A program made the position numbers and the translations under genes. Positions 17,581 to 63,465 of a stretch of 64,000 nt of DNA are shown here, piece by piece (position 1 is the first letter of the stretch; every line of letters begins with the position of its first letter). Location: assembly GCF_041381155.1 (NCBI RefSeq), contig NC_091145.1, positions 40,005,882-40,069,881 of the forward strand, in the 5' to 3' direction. The notes under the pieces were generated by a model that was not told the DNA's origin, ran no database searches, and was given only the letters and a program-made list of their open reading frames with translations. This DNA comes from Argopecten irradians (lineage: Eukaryota; Mollusca; Bivalvia; Pectinida; Pectinidae).

Positions 17581-17584
17581 TATA

Positions 17585-17837
17585 TCTTTTTTTCGAATAT
17601 TTTAATTTTTTCAACAAAAATATTTATTCAGTATAAACATTTCCCATCCGCATATATTGGGCTCTCATTCAATTTCCATATGTGTTATCTTTTAGATCAA
17701 ATTTACTTCACTCTTTTCTCTTACCTAATTACAGATGTATTAAGAATATGCGATTGCATACATTTCAATCATTCCTCGCATCCGCTCAAAAAAGTGTATA
17801 CAATGAAGTAATTTCAATGTATCAAGGGAGACAACTC
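17585..17837. other. short spacer between two transposon insertions
   Basis: AT-rich, no open frame of interest. It separates the LINE at 13298-17580 from the MITE that begins at 17838. Confidence 0.4.
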
Positions 17838-42200: not shown

Positions 42201-45200
42201 TGATTTCTTTATTTCAAAACAATTTTGCCACAGTTTAAAAAAAAATTTTTTTTTTCTTTTTCTCTTTAGCGTTAAAAACAACAAGAACACAAAAGGACGG
42301 AGTCAATTGTTAATTCATTTGAAAACATACATTGGTATATCAGTCAGCGGGAACGTTGATGAAAATGCAAGAAAATAGAAACAACTATCAGTAACATTCA
42401 GATAAAGCTACAAAATATAAAATACATAATATCAATATACACTAAATCATTTATTTTAAAAATCAGGTTAACCTCGATATATTTTAACACATGTGTATAA
42501 TATCTGTATACAGCACTCGTATACAGTAGACATATAGACATAAAGCTCTAAGTATAGACGAGCTATCTATCTTTAAGGGCCCCACCAGCGCCGGTCCCAG
42601 TCAGTCCCGGTCCCAGTGAGGGACAGCTCAGCTGTTTAATGCCACTCTGCAAAGTAGTAGACTGCATCATCGTGCTTCCATGAGGAAAGTATACAATGTT
42701 CAACACGAACATTGTTGCAACATCTGTCAACTGTATGCACCATCTCAATGGCACTTTGTGAAGTTTTCAGTCTGGATTGATAATACTTTTTTTAAAATGG
42801 ATTTATTTACTTTCATGTTTATTTTTGAGAAATATTTTGTTAATAATGTTGCTTCAGAATTAATAAAAAAGGTTTATATGTCAGAAAATGGGCGATTTTC
42901 TCTGTCGGAAATACTCAGAATATTGCCGATTTTTTATAACTTCAAAAAAATATGCACAAATTACTTGAAATATCGTAAACAAACTAATTAATATCTGTAT
43001 CATGGGATTCATGACTCCATCAATATATATGCTCTGTAAAACACTGTTATTTCTGCTTTGTCCGTGCCGGTTCATCGCCCGTTCACCGCTTCTTTCACTT
43101 TCTATCGTTCCGAGTAGTGTGTTTGTTGTAGGATGTTAGTACATTATTTGCCGTTGAAAAATGCACGAAAATAATCTATCAATATTGAAGTTTTGACAAC
43201 AAGTTTTTGACAAAATTATCAACACTCACTGTAAACTCGCCAGCCATTCCACGACCAACACGGCGTCAGGTAATGGCGATAGTACGGGACCTCGCCGTTC
43301 TTGATGAACGTCAGATTATCGTCTAAATAATTGTCAGATTATATGCTTTTAGGTCTGTGATATTTAAATATCATGACATCGCACTTATAATTACAAATAT
43401 ATGCCGTAATATCAACAACAGAAGCCATGATGGCGTCCCCGGTAACGTCCCCGGTAACATCAACATGAGTGAAGCAGTGAACACATGTGTGATTTTCTCG
43501 GTTAATTTATTCAGAACACTGTGCATTGTAGTGCGTCGGTAGGGTTTGTAACAGTTGTCTCCCTTTGTACGGGCTGTTTGACATGTTCGTCAGTTTGGGG
43601 GAATTCTAGTTCATTTTTATAGAATATTAGTGGACAGGCCTAGCAATATTCGATTAAATACCCGTAATTGAAAAGGCATTTATTGTCAGTTTTATTATTT
43701 ATAATTACAAACAAGATTATATGCAATTACTTTTAGATTCGCGGTTTGTAAGTTAGTCTGCCGTAGGTTAGTAAGGCTAACAGTTGCAGCGTACTTACTA
43801 GGCCTACTGTAGTAAAAGTACCGATATTGAGACACACTTTCGGTGAGAATAATTAATACCTTATTGTAACATTGAAAATAAGTCTGAAGTAATTAAGTGG
43901 GAAATTATAATGTGACTGAAACATGAATGTGACTGAAACATGTGATAAACGAAGAACCTCTGACAGTTAGTATAGACTGCTGTACAATACACAACGTACG
44001 CTGCAATACACAGTATAAAATTATCTCCCGTAGTTCCAGAAACTGTCGATAGGATTACCAAGGTATAGTGTTCCGGTGATGATTGAAAACCAAAGTGATC
44101 CCATAATGGCAGGCGTGTATTACACACGCCTCCATAAAAACAAAAACAAAAACTTTACATGCAAAACATTTTTTATCAACTCACATCAAACTACAATCGT
44201 TTCACAAGCAAACTTAAATTGGAGCTTGAGATTAAGTTAAATCCCTAAATAGATATTCTTCGAAACCACATAACTTATCAAATCAATTCATTAAGAATCA
44301 AAAGTAATGTATCTGCCACTACATATATTGGACCTTTATGATGTCAATATATATTTATAATATTGGAAATTACACTACATGTCTTATCCATTATCGACTG
44401 TTCTCTGACTTTAAGCTTGAAATCAATTTCAATGATGAGATGAAATAAACCAGTTACTATTAACTGACCTTTGTAACATCTGCGGCGTGGAAGTAAACAG
44501 GTATGTTCAGGCTAGCCATGAGTTTAGTCCATGTGTATGTCACCAGACATAACTTCCATATATCGCTAAAAATCTCATGGGAATCGAACCCTCCGCAAAT
44601 GTATGCTCCTGAAAACATTCAAAGATATGTTGATATAAAACAATTGTCCAGAAGGAGATATTACAGAAATAAATCAAAAAGAATGTCTCTTCTTTTGCAA
44701 TTTTTTTAGCATCTTCCAATCTCACGGCAAAATGAATGGATTTTACGAAGCTCACAGATGTGTCTGAAAATTTGCAGAAGAGACATTCAAATTGATAAGT
44801 TTCTACAAATTTCATTTATTTTAACTTTATTCTAAACATACTATACAGTGACATAAATATGTATATAATGGTCCACATGGAGGATCTTACATGTATGGCT
44901 AGGCAAATATGAAATTTGTTAAATATCAGTTCAATAACTTGTAAGGCTCGTGCCATATATCAAATTATTTAAATAGTTTAATAATTTCTAAATTACAAAG
45001 CCATGAGTGTAAGATTCTAACATAACTAGTGGGCCTATTTATGAAAATATACACAAAACTTTCAAGTCCGTTTCTGTATAAGAGAGCCAAAATCAGACTT
45101 GGATTTGACACTTCCGTCTACTGAGACAATCGTACGATGTCATATTTTGACTACGACATCATTATTACCAGTGATGTCACAGTACACATGTGTCTTATGA

Positions 45201-45605
45201 TATGACATGACTGTATGACATTGCCGAATAGGCCATTAATATTTATTTTCTTCACATCTCTACTTACCTTGCTCATAATAAACACAACTATGGCATTTCC
45301 TTGGTCTTGGGTAACCTTCAAATACGAAAACAATCTCAAATCAGAAATAAAGAAAGCAAAAAGTTAATGTTCTACTTTAAGAAACGGTGGCCATGATCTT
45401 TGGCCATCATCAATCCCAGGCTATTTTGATAGGAATGTGTGTATTTAAAAATTGATATCTTAGATTATCATAAGGAAACATTATTGAAGATGAAACTGCT
45501 ATAGTGATGTGTGTTGAACTAAATTTAATTCCGAGTACAAAGGTAAACAGACTGTTTTTTGATGGTTTTAACTTTAAATCCTTAATGTCTAAATAGTATA
45601 CATGC

Positions 45606-45636
<31 letters not shown>

Positions 45637-48600
45637 GACTGGCTACCAGACCCTACCTTTCAGGAATTCTAATACTAGATAGATTATCTCCCCTTAGTTT
45701 GATACTTAAAATCGCACATGCTATAGAGACAAAAATCATCAGGCCATTTTATTGGTTTAAGATATTTTGAAATTCAAGAGTCTGGTTGCTAGTCTATTTT
45801 TGCAATTCAAAACTGTCTTATCGATAGACTTTTTCATTTTTAGAATCTCTGAATATTTTTTTTTTCCTTCTAAAATTCAATGAATTGATTTACTGATTGA
45901 TGAGCAAAATTAGAACTTGCACTTTGAGAGCTCCCTTCCTTTTTAATTACATCTAAACTTACCACTTTTTGGATCTGGTTTTGTCTTGATTTCATCCCAC
46001 ATACATCGCTCAAAATGGAATGCTGGTACTTTTTCAAACCCGAATGAGTTGACGGCAGTTCCCCCACCAAACAAATACAGTCTGATTCCATCACTGGCTA
46101 CTTCATGTCTATACCTGGTAAACACAACAATTATATCTACACACACCTTCATTTGTATTGTTAGTGTATATTCTATGTAATTTAAACCAAAGGACAGACA
46201 GTCATTGACTACATGTAACTTTATAAGTTTATTTTTATTTTCATTATTCCTGATGATTTTGGCCGTACCTATACTTAAGTAACACCAGTACAGGACTTTT
46301 ATACTACAAACATACACACCTTCCAGATTTACTGGTTAAGTGATGTATTTGATTACACCCGATATAAATCATTTTAGTATTTTTTCTTCAAGAATTTTAC
46401 TATTGGTGGGAATAAAACATATCAGATAATATTTATGAGAAATGAAATTATAATTGTTTGCTGTTGTAGGTGATATATAAAAACATTGTGAACTTAAGTA
46501 GAATTTAGTTACTTAACCACAGGGTGATAAATTACATAACAATGTGATACCTGTCAGAGCTGAATTAGGTGGCTAGTACTGTAAGTAGATTACAAAACCT
46601 TTTTGTTAAATGGCACAGATTATTTTATAATTAACCTGAGGGTGGGATTATCAAATGTTACAAACCTGCTTTCAGGCATATATTTATTGTCAATGCTTTC
46701 AATTCGGGTCCATGTGGCTGTCCGTAGGTCTAGTCTGTGGATATCCATGTTGTAAACAAACCCCGATGTTCCTCCAACAATATACAGGTGATGGCCAACT
46801 ACATTCATAGACTACAACAACACAATATTAGATATATCTCAGGTATCCCATGTACAGGGTAGAGCTTAATCAACTACATGTAGCTAATAAAGTTGTACTC
46901 TATATACAGGGTAGAGTTTAATCAACTACATGTAGCTAATAAAGTTGTACTCTATATACAGGGTAGAGTTTAATCAACTACATGTAGCTAATAAAGTTGT
47001 ACTCTATATACAGGGTAGAGCTTAATCAACTACATGTAGCTAATAAAGTTGTACTCTATATACAGGGTAGAGTTTAATCAACTACATGTAGCTAATAAAG
47101 TTGTACCCTATATACAGGGTAGAGTTTAATCAACTACATGTAGCTAATAAAGTTGTACTCTATATGCAGGGTAGAGCTAATCAACTACATGTAGCTAATA
47201 CCCCCCCTCCCCCCGGCTCCTTAACTTTGTTGCGGTGGTTATAATGAGTGATATCTATTGCTTACTATTAGAGATGAATGTAACCACACTGGCCACTTTA
47301 ATTTAGGTACTGCCTCTTGCACCCCTAGGGCCAGGAGTTTGAGCCAACAATCATAAAATTTAGTGTTTTTCTCTAAGCCTATAAGATATATAATTAAAAG
47401 AAAAGTGAAGTTTACAACATTCACAACCAGGTCATGGTCACTGTAAATCTATAAAAACAAGAGGCCCAGAGGGCCTGTATCGCTCACCTGGTTTGTAATG
47501 CCAAGGAATGTTCTGAATACAAGTTCATTGTTTCCTTTCTGAAGGAATTTGAATATTTACCTCTAATTCCCCTATTAGGCCCCACTCTTTCTGCTCCAGG
47601 GGGTCAGTGCCAAAATTTATACAAGTTCTTTTCCCATTCCCTAAGGATGTTTGTGGCCAAATTTGGTTACAATCCATGCAGAACTCTATGACAAGCAGCG
47701 ATTTAAACGAAATGTTGACGGACGGACGGACGACGGATGCTGCGCCATGACATAAGCTCACCGGCCCTTCGGGCCAGGTGAGCTAAAAAACCAACCATGT
47801 CCCCAATAGCAAATGTCACAACTAGGACACTAGTCTAAATATACAGAAAGGTTTGTGAAGTTGTAGCTGTTGTACTATTCGGATGTTAAAGCCTGGGAAA
47901 GTAACTCGGACGGACGGACAGACAGATGGAGTCCAATTTATATAGCGCTCTAGCCTACAAATGTGATTCACTGAGGATGGATTTGTAATAATTGTGTAGA
48001 TAATGTGTCAGCCTTCTCACTTCCTTTATTACACACCTGTCCAACAGACATAGCCAACAGGTAAAACTCAGGTGTAATTACAGGTGTACTAATCTTATAC
48101 AGGTACAAACATGTGTCCCCTTCAGGCACATGACCTGTCCCAAGTATTCATCCGACTGTCATTCATCTTTTGGAGTTAATCTCTCATGTTTTTCTTTTAA
48201 TTCTAGTTTAGTATATTTCTTGTGAATATGTCTTTTTAACAATTTAAGCATGTGAAAAAGCCTTGTTATGATAACTAACAAGTGAATATTTTAGAGGAAT
48301 TTCATATAAAGAAGAAGATTTTTATATAAATTTTTGTGCATACTGAGCCATTTGCTTGTATTAAGTGATGTTTGAATATCAACGAAAATCATTAAGATAA
48401 ATGTTTCAGAAAACTCGCTCAAAGGTCAAAGTAAAGGTCACATTGAACATGACCTAGCTATAGTTTTGTACAAGACAAATATCTCATCTACATGAACTCA
48501 TACCAATAGTGAAGTTCTAATGCCTTAAAGTATATAGGAGACAGAGTCTGGACAGAATAATGTACATGTGTGGAAAGACAAAAGGATAGACAGACCGATG

Positions 48601-51600
48601 GATACAAAAAAAACCTATACAGTCCCTTTCAGTTCCTAAAGGATGGACAGACCGATGGATACAACAAAAACCTATACAGTCCCTTTCAGTTCCTAAAGGA
48701 TGGACAGACCGATGAATACAACAAAAACCTATACAGTCCCTTTCAGTTCCTAAAGGATGGACAGACTGATGAATACAACAAAAACCTACAGTCCCTTTCA
48801 GTTCCTAAGGATGGACAGACCGATGAATACAACAAAAACCTACAGTCCCTTTCAGTTCCTAAGGATGGACAGACCGATGAATACAACAAAAACCTACAGT
48901 CCCTTTCAGTTCCTAAAGGGGGACTTTTACCAAGGACTGTTTACAAACAATCAGAAATGATTGACAATCAGCATCAACAGAAAATTTGATAAAGACACAG
49001 GGTTATGCAGGACGAAAATTTCACAAACTTACATGGCCATATTTTTTCTGTGGATGTTCCCCGGTACAGTTGAGTTGACGCCACTTCATTGTATCAAGGT
49101 TACAGATGTGAAGCTGGTTACTGCTACTCTCACCGAACGGTACACCCGTCCCTCCAAAACACAACAAGTTCCTACCGCATCGCACAGCTAAAAAAAAAAA
49201 AAAATTATAATAATAATTGTTTCTCTCTCACCAAATGGTACATCCGTCCCTCTGAAACACAACAAGTTCCTACCACACTGCACAGCTAACAACAACAAAA
49301 TTCTAAATTATAATGTTTTCTCTCTCACCAAATGATACACCCGTCCCTCTGAAGCACAACAAGTTCCTAACACATTGCACAGCTAACAAGAGGCCAAAAG
49401 GTGTTAGCGGGCATCTGACATCCTTGGAAATAGTCATAAAGGAAATTAATTAGATTACGTGTCATAATAGCCATCTTTGATTTGGGATCAACCGGAGATG
49501 TAACAACACTTTGTCGAGACCATGTAAGAATCATTTCAGGCAAGTTTCAGCCAAATCACATCGGCAGAACTTGAGAAGAAGTTCAAAATGTTTTGTCAAG
49601 GTTGCCACTGTGGTTGCCATCTTGGATTTCAGATTGCCCAAAAAATAACAACACTTTGTTGGGACCATGTCAGAATTATTTCATGCAAGTTTCAGCCAAA
49701 TCGCACAAGTTGATCTTGAGAAGAGTTCAAAATGTGTTTTCAAGATTGTGGCTGTGGTGGCCATCTTGGATTTGGGATCAATCCGAAAAATAACGACACT
49801 TGCTTGGTCGGGACCATGTCAGGATCATTTCAGGCAAGTTTCAGCCAAATCATACTGGTGAGATGATGACTATATAGGACATCCTAACCCTTGGGGCAGA
49901 TGACCTAAAAACAAAAAACCTAAAACTGTTTCTCTCTAACCTACCTGTTCACCCGTCTGAAACACACAAGTCCAATGATTTATACCACTGGGATCAGAAA
50001 GATTGTGATGAAGAAACACAATTGTTGAGACATTTAGATACATGTAGCATGGAAATATATTTCACGCTTAGTTTTTCTTAAAAGTTTCTTTGTGTTGTAA
50101 AATAACAGTTTTATACTATTCAGTTTATAGTTTTAGTTTATATATATGCAGTATGTATAGGGTATGTATACATACATAGGACAGTTAGAGACCAGGTGGC
50201 CACATGCACGTGCCCATCTGGGGTAGTTACCAGTATACGTAGGGAGCTAGGGCACTGCATTCTGTTCTCCATATAAGGAGTTGTTTACGACTATGGCTGT
50301 GTATTGGTGTCTAGTTTGATTGACAGGTTGCGTAAGGTGTTCGTAATTATAGTATCAGAATGCTAAACAAGTTAGTGGTCACTCCAGCCAGCCAATTAGA
50401 GTGAGGTGGGGAGAGGGGATGGAAGTAGGTAAAAACCCTAACCCTAGTAAGATTCAGCCAATGAACATGAGTGACTAAAGAAATATAGGTCGGAAGAGCG
50501 GGGTTTTAGCCAATTAGAGAACAGTATCGACGGTACATATGGGGGTATAAGTGACCCAACGACAGAGTACATGAAAACTTTGGGACTTACTCCAAGTATC
50601 TCAGGATACTTTGATCTCTTAATACTTTGAATTATTCTACCACACTTAGTGTTCTTGTGACTATGGGATTTGTACTTGGGATGTACTGTCCAGATATTTC
50701 CTACATGTATCAGTGATGTGAAATACCTGGATTACTCTACAAAACAGTGTACTTACCCGTGTGAGATGCCAGTTCTATAGGCATGTTGCCCTCGGTCTGT
50801 AATAATGTCCATTTCTTCAGAGAAATGTTGAACTGCCATAGCTAGAATACAAAAAGGAAAACTTTAACATACTCATAGCTATGATATTGTGTCAAGATAC
50901 TTTCTCTTGCTGCGCATGATCTTTTTTGATCTTTTGCCCCAAATCATTTGGTCATACATTTACAAGGTAATTAATGCAGGCCCATTTCTCGCCTGATTCT
51001 TCAGTAGAATTCAGGACTCGCCTGGCTATGTATTCACTTGTACTTGGTCTATACAGGATTTCATCTGATTCTTCAGGAATCTCGCCTGTCAACCATCAAA
51101 ATTTCATGTACCAGATCATAATTTTCTCTCACCATATCTCACTTGAAGGTTTTTCATGCAGCAGCCTAGACAGCCCTGAAGGCAAAATATGTTTTTTTGT
51201 TTTTAATTAGTTTTAGTTTTGAATTACTAATGATATTTCTATATTATCCTTGTGTTTATACTAAAATGGGCCATCTTATTTTGTATGACATGTTTCTTTG
51301 ATCTCTTTAAGTTAATACACTGTTGCATTTTACATTCTCTTGTTTGTTGTGTTTTATAAAGTTGTGATTCATTCACCAGATTTGAAGTGTTTTACTACAT
51401 CTAAGTTGTACCAATGTTAATACCTGTCGGACTGACAGCTTTTATGACAATGACAGATGTTCTGAAATCCAAGATGGATGCCCAATACTGTATTCAACCC
51501 AATATTGCCAATTAGGACCCCCCCATCCCTATAAGCATCCCTCCCCCCATTTTGAAACCTCAATTTCACTTATTTCAAATTAAATGCTGATTGAAAATAT

Positions 51601-54600
51601 GAAAACTGTGTATGTTTCTTTATTCAATTTCTTTGACAAACTGGTGATTTATGGCTTACTTTGTGTAACACCTAGTAATTTTATGAAAGGTTAGAGAGAA
51701 TTTGGTTCTACTCACTGGTAGATACTGTTACATACTGTTACATACTGGTACATACTGTTACAGTACAGTACATACTGCCCCCTTATTTCTTAATTTTTAA
51801 GTGCCCTTGGTGCATTATGACAGCTAAAGAGACACTGATAAATAAAACATGCAGCCGATTTCAGTTGAACGCCTAAAATTGTTACTCCTTTTTATTCCTT
51901 CGAAGTACTATAAGAATAAAAGTTGTCCAAATACCTCTTTAAACAGCGGGTAGTAGGTATCCTCTGTATTTTCTACATCCCAGAATCGAGGATTGTAGCC
52001 GCCCAACACGTACATGTTCTTCTCATCAACAGCAACGCGATGACCACTTCTGGGATAGAGGAAGTCATAATCTGTAAAAACAAAACAAGAGGCCCATGGG
52101 CCTTAACGGTCACCTAACATTAGATAGAAATTAGTTATGCCATTTACTAGTCAACTGATGTCTTTTGTTCCTTTTGACACAAAAAAATTACGAAAAAGGA
52201 AACAATTCTATGTGAATGCAAAAATATTTAGAGAGCATATGGTAATCAAGAATATCAAAATACAATTAAGTTATTAATTTATCTTGTCATTTTTATTTTG
52301 TAGTTTCATTAATCTTGATGAATATTTACTCAAGTTATCGTGTTCACAAGGTGCAATAATAATAAATATTAGTACTAAGGGCAATAACTCTGTAATTTAG
52401 AGTCAATTCAAGTTGATTTTTGAACTCACAATGACAGACAAAAGACTATTGCAGAAAATCTGAAGAATTGTTAATCTGAAGGTCCTAAAGATTTAAGGAC
52501 TATTAATCTGAAGGTCCAAAAATCTGAAAGTATGATAGTCCTTTTAGGCCCTAAAAGTATATCGGCCTGTTAGTCCTAATTTAAGGCCTAAAGAATTTGT
52601 AGTACAAATCACTATAACAATATTATACATGGATAGTAATAGTCCTTGAGAGTAGTTTTATTTCATTATACATGAAAATTTGTACAAACAGACCGTTTAT
52701 TATTTTATGTTTTAGGATCTGTAAACGTTTGGGTTTCATTAGTTTATGTCCTATCAACAGCCAGGGTCATGTAAGGACGTGCCAGGTTTGTTGGTGGAGG
52801 AAAGCCGGAGTGGATAAACACCTTTATAAGTACAATGTAACCCTGATGCAACAATGTTTACATTATGTATAAGCCACCTTCCTGTAAAAGCTCTTGGTCA
52901 TAGATACTAATCATGTCTGGAATATAAAGATGATCCAAAATATTCTGACAATCAAATTATGTAAACAGACATCTCATTTATTATGAAAATGATTTGATAT
53001 GGTCTATTATAATCATCGCTAAAATAAATATAATTATCTCTTTAAAAATAAAAAAGAACCTATCTGTAATATTAAAATTGGAAGAGAACTTTGGAAACTA
53101 ATATAACTGAACAACAAATAATCATCATTTACTTTTCTCTGATTAAAGTTACACTATACCATACACATAGCTATCAACAAAAAGTCAAGTTAGATTCAAC
53201 CCTGATATTGTTAGTATTTGTAGATATAGTTGAAATTAAGTTCTATCAAAGAATATTCATAATAATTTCTTAAAGCGTTTGTGACACAAAAACCTTTTTA
53301 TAAATTTTCTAATAGTTTGACCCATCAATGTTGGCTGACACACGTTTCACAGCACTCCGCAAAGCTATTTATCTACTTTAAGGGCAGTAAGGGTAAATTG
53401 CTGCGACTGAGAAAACTTTAATGAGCTAGCTATTTAGCTGGTCATGTGGTACCAACGCGTCATCTGTTTCACCATGATCTGCTGTCTGCTGTAGATACTG
53501 TATATTTATAGAGAAAAACTACAGAGTATTAGCATTAAATATGGATGTGGATGCCTTCATGGGTATTCATCAGATAATTTCTTTTTAATAAGTGAATAAT
53601 ATAATCTGTAATATATCTTACATAATTATACTTTTAAATTAAAATCATCCATTGAGAATAATTAATTTCTCCTTTTATTATATTATAAATGCATTAACCC
53701 AAATGCATTTGTATGATTGATATCAGTGACTTACGTCTTATAATTACTACATTAATTTTACATACCTACATATTACAAACATACATGTATCTCAATAACA
53801 TATCTTCTATAAATCAACATCAATGACAACAATTTGTAATATACTTTAATTTATTACTATGTCAATAAACTATTGAAGAATTCAGTAAACAAGGATTATA
53901 TTCTTACAACAGAGGAATGTATAATAATGACAATGGTTACTACTGTGAGACAAAGCTAATTACATGGTTCAATTACCAAAAGTCAATTTTTCCATTTTAT
54001 TTTGTGATATATATTTAGTTATATTTTTTAATTTCCAACAGGTGCTCGTGTGGTTTCTGTGATCCTAAGGTTACGGAATTGGAATCTATGGTCTGCTGTC
54101 GTGAGACAAATGATGTCAGTTCTATAGTTTTCAATAAAAAACATCTCTGTAAATTGTTTATATTGTTATTAATTTAACCTATTGATATGCTTATTATTAA
54201 AGATGCTCCACCGCCAACAGAGCTTAAATGATATTCCTCATTTGAACAATAGTTGGTGTTTAGTAGTGTATATTTATGTCTAATGAACACGAAAAATAAT
54301 ATAAAATAATTTATTTTGCCTTTGGTGCATGTGCAAGCAGTACTTCATTCCATATAGGATATAGTGCCATGGAATTTTTTCGGGATGCAATTAATTATTT
54401 TTTCATATTTTTAATTTGAAGTAAAATTAGAAGCTCAAACTTTTCAATGGTAGTAATGGTGTTAAGTAAGTAATTTTGTAACTGAAGAAAAATACTAAAT
54501 CCTCTGCTGCTGTTTTTGATATTGAAAAAATACCATTTGTCAGCGATGGAGCATCTTTAAAGAATGTTACTTTTGTTGTAATATTTATATAAATTATATC

Positions 54601-56641
54601 AATCCTCTTCTCGATATAATGTATTCATATGACTATACAGCCAGATACTATTACTGATATTATGCAATTTTTTATTTAATAATGTGCACTGTAGCATTTG
54701 TATGAGTAATCAAGTAACAGGCAATGGTGATGATAATTGTCCTTAAGTTGTTACAAGCAAACACACATTTGAAAAAGGAACATTTCATGTATAATGTTTA
54801 CTAACAAACAGGGCTGAGAAATTATAATAAAAATGTACAATAAATACCATTATCAGGTCATAGCTCATAGGTCACCTTTTCAAACATGCATTAAATTGAC
54901 CCTGAAGTAATTTAATTGCCTCCATATAAAACCCCATTCACACAAATGATGATTTTCTGTCAGCTCCAACTAGACACTTCAGTAATGCAACCATGCATTT
55001 GAATGCTCTTCTTCTTTGAAAAGCGAAAGAACTTGTTTTAAGAAAAAAATTATTTTATTTTAACTTATTTTATTTCTGTGATTTTTATATCAGCCATAAG
55101 CATCACATTGCACTACACTGAATTTATAATGACAGTCTGTAATTATTTCATGTGACACACAGGATAAGATGACTGTAAGTTTGGGTGTTTAGCTCTAATG
55201 GTGTCTGTCTCATCAGCAGCGGTGAGCCAGTCGGTGAACCAGTGACGCGTGCTGGCTAACAGCCTCGTTATCGGCTTATCGCAATAAATTTTTGCATATT
55301 GGTCAGCTGCCCAGATGGCCCTATGTCTAGCCTGGTATCTTGGTGTGTGTATTTGCCATCCCCATGGAGTGGGCTATTTCGGTGAACTTAAAGATGGCCC
55401 AATCTATAGGCGACTTATCATTTTTTGTGTCAAAAACTCTTTAATAACTTTGGTAAAGCAGTTGTTAAAAGTTGATACTTGTAAACATGCCTTTTTTTTC
55501 AAACTGGTCGACATAGACGTTACAATTATTGTCAAACGGAAGTCGAAAAGTTCATGAACTGTTCTCAGAAGAGTTCAGACCGACGTTACATAGTTACGAT
55601 GGTCACATGACTTTCTTGGCAACAACATTACAATGTCGGATAACTTCGGCTAGTTTGACTTTATTGGACCCACCTAGCGATGTTCAATATTATTTTTGAT
55701 TTATCAAAAGTTTCTGAATGATTATCGCTCATCTTGACTTCAATTTAGTCCTGTCTCTGTGTAATTTACAACAGGATTCTTTTTTCAAAATTCTTCTTAT
55801 CATGAAAAAAATTAGACAGATACAGATATTGGGACTTTTGAGTTGATTAAGCCATCTGACCTGATCAGTGTTGCAAACCTATTTTCCTCAAGCTCTTCTT
55901 TCTTATTTTTGAGGGGAAAAAACTAAAAACTGGTTACCCATTTACTTTGGTTTTGGTGAACATTATTATTATCGTATTTCAATCCTAAAACATAAAATCT
56001 TTTATCTGGCCTTTATAGCGTAGTTTTTTTTTCAGTATGGCATTTTAAAATTAACTAAATTCTCTGATTCAAATCATAATTAGAATTATTTTTGTTAAAA
56101 AGTTTGTAAACATGAATCATAATCTGCAACAATCATACACGTGAACACTTGTGTCATTATAACTTTACAAAGATGGTTCATCCTGGCCATAACATCGGGT
56201 ACCACAAGTTTAACTATATTAGTAGCTAGGAATATTGTGATTTGATAAATATGATCTAAATATATTTGCTTATCCCATTGGTTCAATAGGCCTACCAATT
56301 CAACGATTCTAATTAAGCATGTGATTAATGATGGGCAACTTTCCCGACGAGCTTTATTAAATGAGGGTACTAGCGCACGGATGTCAATAAATGGGCTGAC
56401 GCTTGGCTATTTATGGTAATGTTGACATCTCGGATCAGCTGGGTCGTGTTCGATCCCTTAGGCAAGGGCAAATTCCAACACAAAATACACTGATAAATGT
56501 TGCACAGAAAATGCATCTGAAGAAGAAAATGAATCATTAACATGCATTCTCACCAACATTGTCTTCGACTAAATTTTCTGTCGATTCGTCATCATATTGC
56601 GTTGGTCCAAATCTTTCGAAAGCCAACAAGTTTCCTGCCAT
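39219..56641 (-). CDS. KLHDC10: kelch domain-containing protein 10 (Cullin-2 E3 substrate receptor)
   Basis: Nine exons, all phases agreeing and all GT-AG: 56554-56641, 51935-52071, 50757-50841, 49033-49187, 46666-46811, 45963-46114, 45268-45315, 44469-44608, 39219-39425; 385 codons. Six kelch blades show GG pairs near residues 53 (YVLGGYN), 115 (LLCFGGTG), 168 (LYIVGGTSGFVY), 220 (LYLFGGGT), 276 (YICGGF) and 325 (MYVFGGV). The C-terminus has a BC box, TLSGLCWDYM (347-356), and closes on VPMHFVDRL, matching vertebrate KLHDC10 throughout. Human KLHDC10 has a longer N-terminus. In the family it joins elongin B/C-CUL2 to recognise C-terminal degrons, including alanine tails from stalled translation, and affects ASK1 stress signalling. 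The start is the ATG in the divergent promoter. Introns are rich in repeats, including broken tandem copies of exon 4. Intact as read. Confidence 0.95.
39955..40225 (+). repeat. family A repeat, partial copy 4 (KLHDC10 last intron)
   Basis: Shares GTAGTTATGCTCCTGCTGAG, TCAGTTTAATGTGACCAGG, GCAAGAGTTCCATTATACAA and CATACATTGGAGGCCGTCC with 6690-6930. Lacks the 5' part and the CAAA tail. Confidence 0.6.
40845..41208 (+). mobile_element. MITE, AGATGCTCCACCGC family, copy 4 (KLHDC10 last intron)
   Basis: 364 bp, TTAA on both sides, ends AAGATGCTCCACCGCTGACA and TTGGCGGTGGAGCATCTT. Same orientation as copies 2 and 3. Confidence 0.88.
41209..41407 (+). mobile_element. LINE 3' tail with ATTG repeats
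   Basis: Contains TAGTGTCTCGTAAGTC...AAGCTGG and ends AAATAAATATTATTGATTGATTG. The LINE at 13298 has the matching order near its own 3' end (AGTGTCTCATAAGCC...GGCTGG, then AATAAAATATTGATTGATTG). It is a severely 5'-truncated copy of the same family in the opposite orientation, abutting MITE copy 4. Confidence 0.65.
41930..42080 (-). repeat. family A repeat, tail copy 5 (reverse)
   Basis: Starts with TTTGTTTGTTTGATTAATTA (the reverse of the CAAA tail), then ACGTCCTATTAACAGC, CATGTAAGGACGGCCTCCCA and TGGGAGACTGCGGTATATTC, which is the reverse complement of the 3' part of 6440-6968. Confidence 0.7.
42440..43260 (-). other. possible nested minus-strand transcription unit in KLHDC10 intron 8
   Basis: At 43246 on the minus strand ATGGCTGGCGAGTTTACA runs straight into GTGAGTGTTG, a good donor, in a locally GC-rich patch. 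Further down, 42563-42780 is another GC-rich block that stays open in more than one frame, followed by AATAAA near 42452. The order ATG, donor, GC-rich block, poly(A) signal suggests a small gene or an alternative KLHDC10 exon, but no protein family is recognised and no acceptor could be fixed. Confidence 0.2.
45605..45635. repeat. TA dinucleotide microsatellite
   Basis: About 14 uninterrupted TA units between KLHDC10 exons 6 and 7. Confidence 0.95.
46849..47199. repeat. 52-bp minisatellite in KLHDC10 intron 4, about 7 copies
   Basis: Unit TACTCTATATACAGGGTAGA followed by GTTTAATCAACTACATGTAG and CTAATAAAGTTG; period 52 bp from coordinates. Copies are nearly identical, so the array is young. 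It begins only ~40 bp from exon 5, on the acceptor side. Confidence 0.92.
47453..47788 (-). mobile_element. interspersed element starting AACAAGAGGCCCAGAGGGCC (reverse), KLHDC10 intron 4
   Basis: Reverse-orientation copy of the 25872-26171 element and the most complete in the window. It ends GCCCTTCGGGCCAGGTGAGC, a perfect GC-rich mini-hairpin, after a GGACGGACGGACGACGG run. Confidence 0.75.
48583..48919. repeat. 57/53-bp minisatellite in KLHDC10 intron 4, about 6 copies
   Basis: Unit AAAGGATGGACAGACCGATG, AATACAACAAAAACCTATAC, AGTCCCTTTCAGTTCCT. The first three copies are ~57 bp; the last three have lost bases (CCTACAG for CCTATACAG, one A fewer). Open frames of 67 and 139 codons through it are by-products. 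Confidence 0.9.
49221..49289 (-). pseudogene. pseudo-exon: tandem copy of KLHDC10 exon 4 (first duplicate)
   Basis: On the minus strand it repeats the exon 4 acceptor and first ~65 bases: TAGCTGTGCAGTGTGGTAGG against TAGCTGTGCGATGCGGTAGG in the true exon (acceptor at 49188-49189). The acceptor lies 98 bp upstream of the true one. The kelch diglycine becomes arginine-glycine (FRGT for FGGT). The copy stops where exon 4 would continue past GGTGAGAG, so it cannot replace the exon. Confidence 0.85.
49317..49386 (-). pseudogene. pseudo-exon: tandem copy of KLHDC10 exon 4 (second duplicate)
   Basis: Same unit 97 bp further upstream: TAGCTGTGCAATGTGTTAGG, again with FRGT instead of FGGT, and a stop shortly after the copied part. 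A worn third fragment, TTTCTCTCTAACC..GTTCACCCGTCTGAAAC, lies at 49928-49970 beyond an inserted repeat. Confidence 0.85.
49387..49910. repeat. tandem ~140-bp repeat module in KLHDC10 intron 3
   Basis: Three diverged units each carry GGCCATCTTGGATTTGGGAT (or close), AACAACACTTTG, GGGACCATGTCAGAAT, AGGCAAGTTTCAGCCAAATC and TTGAGAAGAAGTTCAAAATG. The block starts AACAAGAGGCC, like the other AAGAGGCC elements. It appears inserted among the exon 4 duplicates. Confidence 0.75.
52083..52125 (-). repeat. short fragment of the AAGAGGCC element beside KLHDC10 exon 2
   Basis: AACAAGAGGCCCATGGGCC then AACGGTCACCTAAC, starting only 12 bp from the exon 2 acceptor, so it provides part of that intron's 3' end sequence. 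Confidence 0.6.
52733..52810 (-). repeat. family A-related SINE tail fragment
   Basis: GTCCTATCAACAGCCAGGGT, CATGTAAGGACGTGCCAGG and GGTGGAGGAAAGCCGGAGT. The first block matches the reverse of the 6440-6968 3' end; the rest belongs to a related subfamily. Confidence 0.55.
54197..54560 (-). mobile_element. MITE, AGATGCTCCACCGC family, copy 5 (KLHDC10 intron 1)
   Basis: 364 bp, TTAA on both sides, ends AAGATGCTCCACCGCCAACA and TGTCAGCGATGGAGCATCTT. Orientation as copy 1. Confidence 0.88.
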
Positions 56642-56803
56642 TATTTTGGTTTCATTCCAAGCGTCTGCACTGACAGCAACAGTTAAACACATTGGGGATC
56701 CAGATTATGTGGTCATATGCTAAATCTAATCCGATTGGTAAATGCTGAAAAAATAAGCCAATGAACGAACCGGAAAGAAACTTCCTTTGGTTTCATTTAC
56801 AAA
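56642..56803. promoter_or_regulatory. bidirectional promoter of KLHDC10 (minus) and ZC3HC1 (plus)
   Basis: Only 162 bp separate the two start codons. It holds an inverted CCAAT box (GATTGG, 56733-56738), a direct CCAAT box (GCCAAT, 56757-56762) and paired ETS-like sites (ACCGGAA at 56769-56775; CTTCCT at 56781-56786), with no TATA box. CCAAT plus ETS sites without TATA are typical of bidirectional housekeeping promoters. Both 5' UTRs must lie in this interval unless upstream non-coding exons exist. Confidence 0.7.
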
Positions 56804-59800
56804 ATGGCTTCAACTGAAAAAGTTACACCGGAGCGTGTCAAGACACTTTTATCTTCGTTTTTAGCTGCAGTATCGACAGAGCACAATTGTGAAAGGTTTT
56901 AAATGACTATTTTATTCATTGGCAAGTTTGTAGGAAATGAGTTTCAATGAATAGTTAATTGCTCTCTAGTTTTAGGTCGATAGTAGTCTACGAGTACAAC
57001 CACAGGGCCTCGTTACTAATGTCATGATGATATATATAAGATAGGTCACGTCTATTTACATACATTGTATGTAAATAGACGTGACCTATCTTATATACCG
57101 GTATATCATTATTAGTAACGAGGCCCTGTGGTATAACTGTAAGGCTGTTTTCGTTTGTAAAAGTCTTTATTTTAAGGTTCATGTAATGGCTTTAACCAGT
57201 GATATTTTGCAAGCCTAAAACGCATTACTGTGCTGCTATTGAACAGAACTAATTTCATTAATTGTTGGTATATACCCTGGCTAACTGTCAGTCTTACTGT
57301 TGATAAGTAATTTGTGAAGCTGCTTGTAAATTTCAGTAAAATAAGAGAAAAATGTATATTTCTGGAGAAGACATAGAACTCGTGTGAATTGCATTGATGG
57401 CACCAAATAAACATGCTATCGTGTTCAGTAGTGACTATGCCAGGTACTCCAACAGTTTGTTTGGCAAAATCGGACCAGCGAATAGCGCAGGAGCCTATTG
57501 TTGTAAATGCAAATGGCTGCTTTAAATGGCGGATCACAAATATAGCATATAAGAAGACATTTTAATTGATACAAGTGCTCTTATATACACTATAAGGTAC
57601 TCTGAACATGACAAGAAGAATATTTACGAAAAAAATAGCTAAAATGGACTTTGAGGCTCTTTCCGGAAATTTGCATTTTTCGCGCCAAACAGATTGTTTG
57701 AACTATTTTTTTCGTGAAGAGTCTTCTTGTTCTGTTCAGAGTACCTTATGGTGTCTATAAAAACATTTGTATCAATTGAGATGGCTTCTTATATGCGATA
57801 TTTTTGATCCGCCATTTATAGCAGCCATTTGCATTTACTACACTAGGCTCCTGCTCTATTTGCTGGTCCGATTTTGCCAAACAAACTGTTGGAGTACCTG
57901 GCATATTCACAACTGAACACGATGGCATGATTATTTGGTTCCATCAATGCAATTCACACGAGTTCTATGTCTTCTCCAGAAATATACATTTTTCTCATAT
58001 TTTACTGTATTTTACACGCAGCTTCACAAATTACATATCAACAGTAAGACTGACAGTTAGCCAGGGTATATACCAACAATTAATGAAATTAGTTCTGTTC
58101 AATTGCAGCACAGTAATGAGTTTTAGGCTTGCAAAATATCACTGTTTAAAGCCATTACACAAACCTTAAGTATAAATCCAGACGGACCTGCAGTTTATGA
58201 TACAGACTTGTGAGGGCTTTGTCAAGGCTCGACTGAAAACAATATAAAATCACCTGGTCTGTCTTTAATCCATAAACGAACTAGGTTCAACCAGTCAAAC
58301 CGCATAATTGAAAACGGTCTTACTCGGGGCTCGTGTCAGATTACGAGAAAATCATATGAAAAAATATGACGGCTAAGAAATGGAGTCAGTAATCTAAATT
58401 CCGACAGATTTAATGATCATCTAATTGAAAGTGCCCAATGTATTTGTGGCTACCAAAACGAAAACTTAAAGGGACATGAACCTTAAATAATTTGTTCTGT
58501 ATGCTTAGATATGGTTTGCAGATGTATTGAATATTTTATTACAATGATTGGTTATCTAAAACGACAGGAAAACGTGGGGAATACCTACCTCAAAAATGAT
58601 AAAAATAGACTGTCATATTCTATTTTTGGAACACAAAACGAAAGATGGCCGAAAGTGAGGTTATAATGAACAACAAACTTGCTGACATGACAAGGAATAT
58701 TAGTTTTCCACATTTTAAGATTATTTTCTAATTTACGATGGTTGACAAATGAAGTTTAAGCCATATTTGTTATAAAACAATTTGTATTTAACGTAAGAAT
58801 GATAAGTCAAAAGTCAAACGAGACTTTTCATTCGACAGGGTACCGCGAAGGGAGGTTCCTGACTTATTGCACATATGTACATCACGCAAGTATAAAGTGG
58901 GGAGTTGCTCCTGTGTCATGCATTACAGTGATCCATTTATATTTACCTACTTTCCCAATCGCGCACGTTACTGACTCTTGACCTACACTGTTTTCTATCG
59001 GAATTCGTTTGTGTTCGCTTCACCCACATTTTTGACCCACCATTTTGTTTACATATGCAGTGCATTGTGGGAGGTCACTAAAGTTCAACACTACTATACT
59101 ATCGTTACAAAATTCGACCGGGCCGGTTCAAAATACAGAAAGATGGAATTTCCATTATAATTATTTTATTTGCACAATAATTGATATATATTACTTAGTA
59201 AGGTATCTGACACGTCTTAAATATGTATTTTACTCAAATTTACATGGTTTATTTAGGTTCATGTCCCTTTAAATCATTTCTTTTTCTCCTGTCCACTCTT
59301 TCATTAATACCGCCATTACTTATTTTTAATCTTCAATAGGATTGGCTACATCTCTGCCAATATTTTAACAAAAGGTAGTTTAAGACTTTCCAATGAAGAC
59401 AATTAATTCATTTTAGACAATGTATCAAAATTTATTATTGAATCAAATCGACTCATGTAAACTTTCTTTACACCTTAAATTATATATATATTATATTCAT
59501 GATTTACAATGTACTTAAGTTTATACCCTATCGAAAGGTAAAAGGGCTATTCATAATCTATTTTCTCACTTTAATAGCAATGGAAAGGGCTTAACTCATT
59601 CTATTTCTTTACATTCTATATATACTATTTATGTTTGTATGTGTGTAGGTTGCAAGAGGTGAATGTATATAAGTAAATGTATGATATATACATGTACTAA
59701 GTATTCAGCATGTATTTAAACTTTTAAAGTAATATATAAATAATTATATGATGAAATATTATGCTAATTAACTCACATATGTATTGTTGCTAGAGATGGA

Positions 59801-62800
59801 AGTAGTATATTTAGGTATATTTATAAATATACTGTAGATAAGTATATAATATTCTACCTATAGAAATAATTTATCTAAATCTAAGTAAATAGTACATAAT
59901 TAACAATAATATTATAATGTATACCATTGTACCGGGTTCAGGAAAGGATCAATATAGGCACTACCTGCCTGTTATCCAATCCTTTTGTTTTCAATAAAAT
60001 ATTTTGAATTGAATTGAAAATGAAAAAATAGGCATCAAATTTGATAAATGTATAAAAAAAGAAAAAATGTCTCCAATTTTTTTTCTCTCATTCGAGCACC
60101 TGCATTTGAGTAAGATTTGTAACAGGATGAGAGTAGTGTGCCGCCAGCCGGGCACGAACCTGTGACCCTGGACTTACTGGTCTGTCGCTCTACCAAATGA
60201 GCTAAAGGGAAATTCCCTCTAGTGCGAAGCTAGAAGGCAACTATATCACTATATGCAATTAAAATCTGCTACACAGTTATTGTATCTATTTTAGTAACAA
60301 TAAGTTAGCCAAATGCAGGATTTTTGTGAAAGTGCATGAAGTTGTTTTTAAACATGTTTATCAAAAATAATGATAACAATATTTACATGGCAGCATTGAT
60401 TACTAACATAGCTAAGTACATTTAATTTATTAATTAAAATGGGACAAACTTCATTGTCTCAGTTTTGGTAAGTCACATCCATTACTTACTATGAGGCTTG
60501 AAATAGAACACAGGTTAAACTCATTCAGCTATGACATTTGCATTAAATTTCCCTGATGGCTATACAATGTAGTCAATTGAGAACACCTAAATAGCCATCT
60601 CTCAAAAAAGCGATACAACAAAATTCAATAGTTCTTGAATCAGTTGCAAGGCATTCTAAGAATTATGACACTTTTTTTAATAAACAATTTTTAAATCATT
60701 ATGTGTTTTAGTGCTAATAAATAATGGTGGATAATTGAAATCATTATATGATATTGTTGGATTATGCTTTGACTTTATCAGGTCACCTAGGAGTAGGTAC
60801 AATGTTTCCAGTGTCTTTCATGCTTTGTCTGCTGTGTGTCTAAACAATTAACATGTTTAATACCAATGAATTTCTCTTTGTTTAAGGGATCCAATACACA
60901 ATGGAAATGGTCAAGAATCCATGGACAGTAGAAATGGACAAGATCAGACAAACCAAGAGGAATCTTCTTCCCGACAGAAAGGTCCACATCCTTGGAGCAG
61001 GGAAGCTTACTTCCAAAGAGTCTCTACATTCACAGTATCCTTTTCATCACTATCACAAGAATTTATGAAATTATCATATATTCCACATTTATCAGTCATC
61101 AAACACGCATTCAGTCCCAATCAGCCTAATACTGTCTCAGTCTTCAGTTAGAATGAGACTTTATAGAAGAAGTCTTAAGAAGATGTTTTGGGGAGCAGGA
61201 GTTAGAATTTCATTTTTACTGCCGTTAAGATTGCACGATTGTGCTACAATACTAGTGTATCGACTCACTGTAGTAGATTTCATCGCTACATGTTACAGGT
61301 TAAGTGTCTATTTAAAACGCATTGTGATTGGCTGACAGTCTGTGTATGTTAATTATTGTTACATAACCTAATTGTGCGCATCCACGAATAAACACCCCAG
61401 TTTAAAATGGCTCCTTTTTGTGAAACCGAGACAAATGCTCAAATAGATAAACCTCGGAAATGTTACACAGTGTTACACTCACTTCGATACTGTTCCCTGA
61501 TTGGTCAACCAATCAAAAACGTTTTGCAAACTGATCGTCGCCGAGCTGTGTGGGAGATCAAAGGGACCCAAACTATTTACTGTTACAATTTCTGCTAAAT
61601 AATAAGCGGTATGGCTATATTTTATGTACTATGTAATGTTAATAAACCTTTATACAGTTTGATATTTTAGTGTACTATGTAATATTTATAAACCTTTATA
61701 CAGTTTGATATTTTATGTACTATGTAATGTTTATAAACCTTTATACAGTTTGCTATTTTAGTGTCCTATGTAATGTTTATAAACCTTTATACAGTTTGCT
61801 ATTTTAGTGTACTATGTAATGTTTATGAACCTTTATACAGTTTGATATTTTATGTCCTATGTAATGTTTATAAACCTTTTTACAGTTTGATATTTTAGTG
61901 TCCTATGTAATGTTTATAAACCTTTATACAGTTTGATATTTTAGTGTCCTATGTAATGTTTATAAACCTTTATACAGTTTGATATTTTAGTGTCCTATGT
62001 AATGTTTATAAACCTTTATACAGTTTGCTATTTTAGTGTACTATGTAATGTTTATGAACCTTTATACAGTTTGATATTTTATGTACTATGTAATATTTAT
62101 AAACCTTTATACAGTTTGATATTTTAGTGTCCTATGTAATGTTTATAAACCTTTATACAGTTTGATATTTTAGTGTACTATGTAATGTTTATAAACCTTT
62201 ATACAGTTTGATATTTTAGTGTACTATGTAATGTTTATAAACCTTTATACAGTTTGATATTTTAGTGTACTATGTAATGTTTATAAACCTTTATACAGTT
62301 TGATATTTTAGTGTACTATGTAATATTTATAAACCTTTATACAGTTTGATATTTTAGTGTCCTATGTAATGTTTATAAACCTTTATACAGTTTGCTATTT
62401 TAGTGTACTATGTAATGTTTATGAACCTTTATACAGTTTGATATTTTATGTACTATGTAATATTTATAAACCTTTATACAGTTTGATATTTTAGTGTCCT
62501 ATGTAATGTTTATAAACCTTTATACAGTTTGCTATTTTAGTGTACTATGTAATGTTTATAAACCTTTATACAGTTTGATATTTTAGTGTACTATGTAATG
62601 TTTATAAACCTTTGTACAGTTTGCTATTTTAGTGTCCTATGTAATGTTTATAAACCTTTATACAGTTTGATATTTTAGTGTCCTATGTAATGTTTATAAA
62701 CCTTTATACAGTTTGCTATTTTAGTGTACTATGTAATGTTTATAAACCTTTATACAGTTTGATATTTTAGTGTACTATGTGGAAATGTTTTGGAAAAAGT

Positions 62801-63465
62801 TGTATTCTTTAACATGTCAGACATTTAACTGGTTTGCAAAACCAGTAGATTTATCTCCCCTTGTTTGTGCACGGTATGGCTGGCAGGTAATTGAAACAGA
62901 CATGCTTGAATGTGTCGGTTGTAAAGCTAAACTTAGTGGACAGTTACCCAAAACAAGAGATAAACAAATATGTAAGTAGCAGATTGCTTCATCAATTTTA
63001 AGTGAAGTTTAAGTTTAGTTTATTGCTGAGGTTATAAAGATTAATTCTGAATTATAATTACTGACTCGATCCCTATTTTAATTGAACAAGAAAGCAAAAA
63101 TTATAACATATATCAGGATATATCACTTTATTTATCAGACATGTATGTTAAAAATTTTAAAATTAATATGCCATATATATATGCAATATTTCACAAATTG
63201 ATATTTTCACTAGCTAGTAAATCCTCTGGGTAAAGGCAAATCAATGAATCACTATATTTATTAAACATGATGATATTTTCACTAGAACATGCATTAAATC
63301 ATAGTTCTCGTGATATTTTACTTTATCTTTGTGGTAAACATAACTGCTGTTTGAACATCAATATGATTTATCAACATTTAGACACGGATTGCTGTAAGAA
63401 ACTAAAGCATGGTCTCACTTGGTCCCATAAGAAGTCGTGTTCCTGGTCGTCTAATCCTAGTCCAG
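56804..63465 (+). CDS. ZC3HC1: zinc finger C3HC-type protein 1 (NIPA), 5' part; gene runs off the window
   Basis: Four exons in phase: 56804-56895, 60887-61034, 62821-62971, 63382-63465; 158 codons so far, the C-terminal two thirds missing beyond the edge. Exon 2 ends HPWSREAYFQRVSTFT and exon 3 continues TFNWFAKPVDLSPLVCARYG, aligning without gaps to vertebrate ZC3HC1. The C3HC zinc ligands are visible: C111 and C114 (ECVGC), H146 and C150 (SHKKSC), then WSSNPSP. Family members lie at the nuclear pore basket, where they bind and anchor TPR; human ZC3HC1 was first described as an F-box-like cyclin B1 regulator. The exon 2 acceptor is AAG rather than CAG/TAG. Intron 1 holds a 134-bp hairpin, a 1-kb foldback, an 807-bp TIR element and a tRNA-like SINE; intron 2 holds a 46-bp array. 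Confidence 0.92.
56999..57132. repeat. 134-bp near-perfect hairpin in ZC3HC1 intron 1
   Basis: ACCACAGGGCCTCGTTACTA at the left is mirrored by TAGTAACGAGGCCCTGTGGT at the right, and the centre is TTTACATACATTGTATGTAAA. Arms are ~65 bp with almost no loop and only a few mismatches (GTCATGATG/ACCGGTATATC region). Probably a tiny foldback element. Confidence 0.88.
57172..58169. mobile_element. 998-bp foldback element with ~465-bp arms, TTAA-flanked
   Basis: The left arm (57172-~57640) and the right arm (~57705-58169) are inverted copies over their whole length: GGTTCATGTAATGGCTTTAA / TTAAAGCCATTACACAAACC at the outer ends, GTACTCTGAACATGACAAGA / TCTTGTTCTGTTCAGAGTAC near the centre. The loop is ~65 bp. 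TTAA sits at both edges. Each arm carries the same reading frame, ending at the outer edge: 57172-57537 minus and 57927-58169 plus, sharing QCNSHEFYVFSRNIHFS and RLTVSQGIYQQLMKLVLFN. No transposase is recognisable. Confidence 0.88.
58466..59272. mobile_element. 807-bp TTAA-flanked inverted-repeat element in ZC3HC1 intron 1
   Basis: The left end is TTAAAGGGACATGAACCT and the right end is AGGTTCATGTCCCTTTAA, perfect over 18 bp. The start TTAAAGGGACA is shared with the elements at 31497 and 63680, suggesting one transposase family. The inside has no convincing coding region, with open frames of 60-75 codons only. Confidence 0.85.
60087..60232 (-). repeat. tRNA-derived SINE
   Basis: The minus strand has an A-box-like TAGCTCATTTGGTAGAGC (60188-60205), an anticodon-arm-like stretch, then a B box GGTTCGTGCCC (60150-60160). 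The A-to-B spacing is tRNA-like. The T stem pairs poorly and the acceptor ends do not match, and tRNA-unrelated sequence continues to an A-rich end near 60087. This fits a SINE head better than a functional tRNA. Confidence 0.55.
61615..62780. repeat. 46-bp minisatellite in ZC3HC1 intron 2, about 25 copies
   Basis: Unit TGTACTATGTAATGTTTATA, AACCTTTATACAGTTTGATA, TTTTAG; a 44-45 bp variant lacks AG/T at the end. Variants alternate TGTAC/TGTCC and GATATT/GCTATT. Longer blocks of five to six units recur (for example around 61980-62110 and 62330-62470). The array ends 40 bp before exon 3. Confidence 0.95.

Follow-up and report, generated by a model that had tools for sequence, protein, structure and literature searches.

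Two genes, KLHDC10 and ZC3HC1, lie head to head in the stretch of DNA studied here, which raises the question of whether the short interval between them is a promoter used by both and whether shared regulation has kept the pair together since the bilaterian ancestor. The window, that is the whole stretch of 64,000 nucleotides that was analysed, corresponds to C12:40005882-40069881 of an 846-Mb assembly, C12 being one of its chromosomes. The start codon of KLHDC10 is located at 56641 on the minus strand and that of ZC3HC1 at 56804 on the plus strand, leaving 162 bp between them (56642-56803). We consider it probable, with clear reservations, that this interval represents an ancient TATA-less housekeeping bidirectional promoter within a UBE2H-ZC3HC1-KLHDC10 block that dates back to the bilaterian ancestor. 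Housekeeping expression of KLHDC10 and ZC3HC1 is an assumption on our part.

A compact divergent gene pair

The divergent orientation and the 162-bp spacing of the start codons are observed directly in the gene models, for which the exons of both genes were read together with their splice sites. A first-pass annotation had reported a head-to-head KLHDC10-ZC3HC1 pair with this spacing at 56554-56895; the segment is exactly KLHDC10 exon 1, the interval and ZC3HC1 exon 1, and the arrangement is confirmed by the exon models, the structure match of KLHDC10 and the domains of ZC3HC1. Comparison of 56440-56960 with the whole assembly returned its own position as the sole match. At 162 bp, the divergent genes lie well within the spacing of less than 1 kb that characterizes bidirectional promoters, a placement that depends on both exon-1 assignments. 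The central elements are as follows:

56642..56803, no strand: interval between both start codons, candidate bidirectional promoter (exon models; single genome match)
56554..56641, minus strand: KLHDC10 coding exon 1, 88 nt, ending in phase 1, donor TTG/GTGAGA (splice and phase reading)
56804..56895, plus strand: ZC3HC1 coding exon 1, 92 nt, ending in phase 2, weak donor AAAG/GTTTTA (splice and phase reading)

KLHDC10 comprises nine coding exons on the minus strand (56641 to 39219) encoding 385 amino acids, with phases that are consistent at every join. Its best match in the PDB was Kelch domain-containing protein 10 (9d8p, E 1.7e-106, residues 37-384), with LZTR1 as the runner-up at E 1.1e-22. 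Within the genome, eight of the 13 matches, the best six among them, were exons of its own locus, and the remaining five (on C14, C4, C2 and C3) displayed 28-35% identity at E 8.5e-12 or worse. Judged by its sequence, the predicted protein is the KLHDC10 orthologue, being closest to this kelch protein over the whole propeller. Exons 2 to 9 are supported by reading frame and splice sites:

51935..52071, minus strand: exon 2 (RSGHR..., where the kelch propeller begins; also PDB match)
50757..50841, minus strand: exon 3
49033..49187, minus strand: exon 4
46666..46811, minus strand: exon 5
45963..46114, minus strand: exon 6
45268..45315, minus strand: exon 7
44469..44608, minus strand: exon 8
39219..39425, minus strand: exon 9, including the stop codon

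A tandem repeat at 49127-49389 (period 97 bp, 2.7 copies) takes in the acceptor of KLHDC10 exon 4 and the beginning of this exon, giving two partial exon copies upstream that each carry an AG acceptor and a GTGAGA donor-like site and are possible decoys or alternative mini-exons. Convergent with KLHDC10 is a UBL4A-like reading frame (25488-25742, plus strand) that matched UBL4A in the PDB (7ru9, E 1e-4, residues 5-82); ubiquitin-chain constructs ranked above UBL4A at 1e-9, covering residues 5-31 only, and the frame had no match in Pfam at 0.001. Several frames on the minus strand at 13600-22100 resemble, by eye, the reverse transcriptase/endonuclease of long interspersed nuclear elements.

ZC3HC1 runs along the plus strand from 56804, with consistent phases at the joins of exons 1-4; beyond the window its exons were traced by eye to 69693, within which the last exon was not located. 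The gene encodes a zf-C3HC domain (PF07967, E 5.5e-32) and a NuBaID_C domain (PF08600, E 6.5e-15), both above the cut-offs, and exon 3 was the only match reported for the zf-C3HC profile in the genome. The best PDB match (E 0.044) was not credible. With zf-C3HC (NuBaID N) and NuBaID_C combined, the predicted product is the ZC3HC1/NIPA orthologue. Its further exons are as follows:

60887..61034, plus strand: exon 2 (reading frame and splice sites)
62821..62971, plus strand: exon 3, C3HC zinc finger (zf-C3HC match and reading frame)
63382..63465, plus strand: exon 4 (reading frame and splice sites)
66533-66660, 67344-67462 and 69397-69693, plus strand: exons 5, 6 and 8 (by eye, past the window end)
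from about 68938, plus strand: exon 7 (placed by eye, past the window end)

Two repeats were seen in the introns of ZC3HC1. An inverted repeat in intron 1 (57172-58169; 473-nt arms, 92% complementary, 52 nt apart) lies 0.3 kb downstream of exon 1 beside perfect 32-nt inverted arms at 57033-57097, and looks like a fold-back element or one of the miniature inverted-repeat transposable element type. A minisatellite at 61617-62780 (46-bp unit, about 25 copies) ends 40 bp before exon 3.

Promoter-type motifs in the interval

The opposed CCAAT boxes and the two ETS-like sites that had been noticed earlier are indeed present in the interval, and the CCAAT boxes number three in all, one on the plus strand and two on the minus strand. 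The pattern [AC]GGAA[AG] was used for ETS-like sites and gave one per strand (56771, plus; 56786, minus), while TATA[AT]A does not occur in the 162 bp. Motif and repeat scans yielded the following features:

56758..56762, plus strand: CCAAT box (motif scan)
56734..56738, minus strand: CCAAT box (motif scan)
56691-56695, minus strand: second CCAAT box on this strand (motif scan)
56770..56776, plus strand: ETS-like CCGGAAA (motif scan)
56781..56786, minus strand: ETS-like AGGAAG (motif scan)
56645..56656, plus strand: 12-bp direct repeat TTTGGTTTCATT, first copy, next to the start codon of KLHDC10 (repeat scan)
56786..56797, plus strand: 12-bp direct repeat TTTGGTTTCATT, second copy, next to the start codon of ZC3HC1 (repeat scan)

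At least one CCAAT box per strand together with at least two ETS sites was found in 42 of 28,549 overlapping 162-bp windows from the surrounding 200 kb (0.15%) and in 0.285% of 20,000 Markov sequences that were generated from the dinucleotides of the interval itself. Neither component is rare on its own, as opposed CCAAT boxes occur in 1.7% of local windows and 8.5% of Markov sequences; for two ETS sites the shares are 3.8% and 4.1%, respectively. We regard the combination as a suggestive sign of a promoter. The flanking direct repeat was discarded as a weak signal, being found in 0.47% of Markov sequences but in 844 of 3771 local windows.

According to the reading that we favour, one short accessible stretch would drive KLHDC10 leftward and ZC3HC1 (NIPA/NuBaID) rightward, with NF-Y (at the CCAAT boxes) and ETS-type factors as the likely activators and with short 5' untranslated regions. 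The pair would be part of a bilaterian-ancestral UBE2H-ZC3HC1-KLHDC10 block, the compact form of which would have been kept in a spiralian, while the vertebrate starts would have drifted about 19 kb apart with the genes still being neighbours. We infer that transcription starts within the interval, that the factors bind there, that the genes are co-expressed, and that their pairing is maintained by shared regulation and not by chance.

Conservation of the neighbourhood

UBE2H is the next recognised gene beyond ZC3HC1. Its four exon matches (C12:40090373-40097658, minus strand; 79-86% identity to the human protein) place it tail to tail with ZC3HC1, inverted relative to human, and begin 14.8 kb past the last ZC3HC1 exon found; reading frames in this gap were checked by eye only. 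The chance of UBE2H landing so close is about 7e-4 on C12 and 3.5e-5 genome-wide. Around and beyond the furthest-5' UBE2H exons found, a long direct repeat with Ty3/gypsy-like reading frames (by eye) extends over about 91716-106412 in window coordinates, with a spacing of 5.17-5.18 kb (also 11.7 kb).

The linkage extends to a larger part of human chromosome band 7q32, in which we take the genes sought to lie close together and KLHDC10 and ZC3HC1 to be divergently oriented. Pfam families served as proxies for these genes, apart from UBE2H, which was sought by the human protein, and all six that were sought are reported. Five of the six (NRF1, UBE2H, MKLN1, STRIP and COPG) are on C12, which makes up 5.07% of the assembly; the binomial chance is 1.9e-6 for at least five of six and 3.2e-5 for at least four of five without UBE2H. 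COPG is located at 37.5 Mb (2.5 Mb from the trio), STRIP at 28.4 Mb (11.6 Mb), MKLN1 at 27.6 Mb (12.4 Mb) and NRF1 at 25.2 Mb (14.9 Mb). STRIP and COPG presumably have human paralogues on other chromosomes, which weakens these two as linkage markers. The ancestral linkage group thus seems to persist with its local order scrambled, while the trio of UBE2H, ZC3HC1 and KLHDC10 stayed together.

Several matches to the NRF1 DNA-binding domain, some with stops in the matching segment, were seen on C12 at 0.2-0.4 Mb, 15.3 Mb and 25.16 Mb and on contig C112, and COPG is present in two copies of opposite orientation about 85 kb apart (37.47 and 37.55 Mb). These multiple matches to NRF1 and COPG are candidates for duplications or assembly duplicates. 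An Rfam scan at gathering scores of the window and adjoining loci (134 kb) yielded three transfer RNAs only and no miR-183-type match.

The Hox genes were used to place the genome. The region C4:46609414-47663691 (about 1.05 Mb) holds the ten homeodomain matches that a search returned; all of them are plus-strand, in a compact, one-directional cluster. The peptide KLTGP (Lox5 type) follows one of the matches, and IKELNE (UbdA type) follows two, marks that we take to be lophotrochozoan. Pointing to Spiralia, these peptides support the invertebrate origin that the first-pass annotation had proposed, a mollusc being plausible, and, because they mark a spiralian, the match with mammals spans protostomes and deuterostomes. 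A search for COX1 as a species marker gave no match.

For human, the gene list runs NRF1, UBE2H, ZC3HC1, KLHDC10 and then TMEM209 (PMC3441634), and for cattle SMO, AHCYL2, NRF1, MIR183, UBE2H, ZC3HC1 and KLHDC10 (PMC13244917); both lists were assumed to follow chromosome order. In PMC4965579, human KLHDC10 is placed 19 kb from ZC3HC1 as the "next gene downstream", in a passage that does not state a head-to-head arrangement. This distance fits the earlier claim that the interval of 162 bp is far shorter than the human one. The claim of an ancient linkage is likewise supported, and can be extended by the adjacent UBE2H and by the five of six 7q32 genes sharing a chromosome. The three orthologues form a microsyntenic block in the sense of at least three orthologues with at most five intervening genes each, found in a protostome and in deuterostomes. 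Being shared by mammals and a distant invertebrate, the KLHDC10-ZC3HC1 neighbourhood is probably older than half a billion years.

Opposing evidence and alternative explanations

Part of the evidence weighs against a shared promoter of great age, including much of what is given below for the alternatives. The CCAAT and ETS statistics are post hoc, as the motifs were picked after the sequence had been seen. The ratio of observed to expected CpG was rejected as a promoter mark, as it is 0.72 in the interval, where windows have a median of 0.59; with both exons included it rises to 1.01, a value reached by 14% of windows and not distinctive. TMEM209, which follows KLHDC10 in the human list, is not on C12 and was found on C11.

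The alternative that survives best, possible yet in our judgement rather unlikely, is passive retention on a slowly rearranging chromosome, in which case the short interval would be a by-product holding separate promoter elements, with no selection on the pairing. The 7q32 linkage group is largely kept on C12, and so is UBE2H, whose tail-to-tail arrangement with ZC3HC1 leaves the two without a common promoter. The human pair was kept despite the 19 kb between the genes (PMC4965579), and so wide a gap suggests that the linkage can persist without a shared core promoter. Conserved pairs in Metazoa are reported to be mostly co-directional, with no enrichment of close divergent pairs in fishes and invertebrates (PMC2871058). 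The vertebrate ancestor is described as having inherited 70 microsyntenic blocks, fewer than the 110-124 given by shuffled genomes (PMC8851819), so that one retained mammalian trio does not suffice to prove constraint. Against passive retention stands the order around the trio, which is scrambled in comparison with human (COPG, STRIP, MKLN1 and NRF1 being 2.5-14.9 Mb off and TMEM209 on another chromosome), as does the local scarcity of opposed CCAAT boxes combined with two ETS sites.

We hold it to be improbable that the interval is not a promoter at all, with distant untranslated first exons or a misassigned coding exon 1 making the 162 bp intratranscript or incidental. The donor of ZC3HC1 exon 1 scored -0.6 bits against a splice consensus and did not rank among the best 25 of 75 in-phase candidates, and exon 2 contains an in-frame ATG as a possible alternative start; because of these two features, the assignment of ZC3HC1 exon 1 may be mistaken. 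KLHDC10 exon 1 has no support from homology, as its peptide is unlike the human N-terminus (a score as high was reached by 4736 of 5000 shuffles), and an alternative start at the in-frame ATG at 56692 would shrink the interval to 111 bp. Other features argue for the assignments. KLHDC10 requires a preceding exon that ends in phase 1, and the exon-1 donor (7.0 bits by the same consensus) ranks second of 59 distinct in-phase donors at 52072-60000, the single better one falling within ZC3HC1 intron 1. The ZC3HC1 exon-1 peptide is the joint best among 65 candidate peptides compared with the human N-terminus, its TPERVKTLL resembling human TPQKIRQLI (132 of 5000 shuffles scored as high), and both ATGs (56641, minus; 56804, plus) have A at -3 and G at +4. 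A secondary adjacency, in which the genes came together once in this lineage and once more in vertebrates, is very improbable, since UBE2H is adjacent too, four more 7q32 genes are on C12, and an independent assembly of the trio would hardly be expected.

The bidirectional promoter that we favour may be extended to a more specific and doubtful scenario. KLHDC10 and ZC3HC1/NIPA are proposed ubiquitin-ligase adaptors, and UBE2H is an E2. The bilaterian ancestor may already have had the compact KLHDC10-ZC3HC1 promoter beside UBE2H, with the trio kept by selection for co-expression of ubiquitin-pathway genes and the promoter later split in vertebrates, leaving the block intact.

Comparison with known systems

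ZC3HC1 is a coronary-disease locus for which an additional role of KLHDC10 expression has been proposed (PMC7320185), and editing of the lead variant changed the expression of neither gene in one cell study (PMC4965579). Ancestral co-regulation of the two genes, if true, bears on how this locus is read. No description of KLHDC10-ZC3HC1 order across phyla was found in the literature searched, which consisted of titles, abstract openings and some passages and did not extend to published tables of conserved pairs.

Both ancestral microsyntenic blocks, in their hundreds, and ancestral bidirectional promoters have already been published, so that the pair is a good example and not a new kind. Ancestral bilaterian microsyntenic blocks were reportedly described by Irimia et al. 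in 2012. A later survey assigned 256 new blocks to the bilaterian ancestor, whereas shuffled genomes gave 45, 48 or 56 (Robert et al., 2022, PMC8851819). The trio is like the blocks presented there in that a spiralian and mammals share three closely spaced orthologues, with no requirement for collinearity; it departs from them in the inversion of UBE2H relative to human.

As the spacing of its divergent genes is below 1 kb, the pair resembles human bidirectional promoters as defined in PMC2871058, a definition that excludes the human KLHDC10-ZC3HC1 pair with its 19 kb (PMC4965579). A precedent comes from amphioxus, where 25% of neighbouring genes are reported to be in bidirectional promoters, with housekeeping functions overrepresented; of 372 putatively ancestral bidirectional promoters, 54.5% were lost in stem vertebrates (PMC6292497). 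As with those disentangled promoters, a divergent pair is compact in an invertebrate and far apart in a vertebrate. The 372 pairs were traced within chordates, some with support from cap analysis of gene expression, whereas the pair described here is defined by gene models and offers an example of an ancient divergent pair that is compact in a spiralian, 19 kb apart in human, and set inside a three-gene block.

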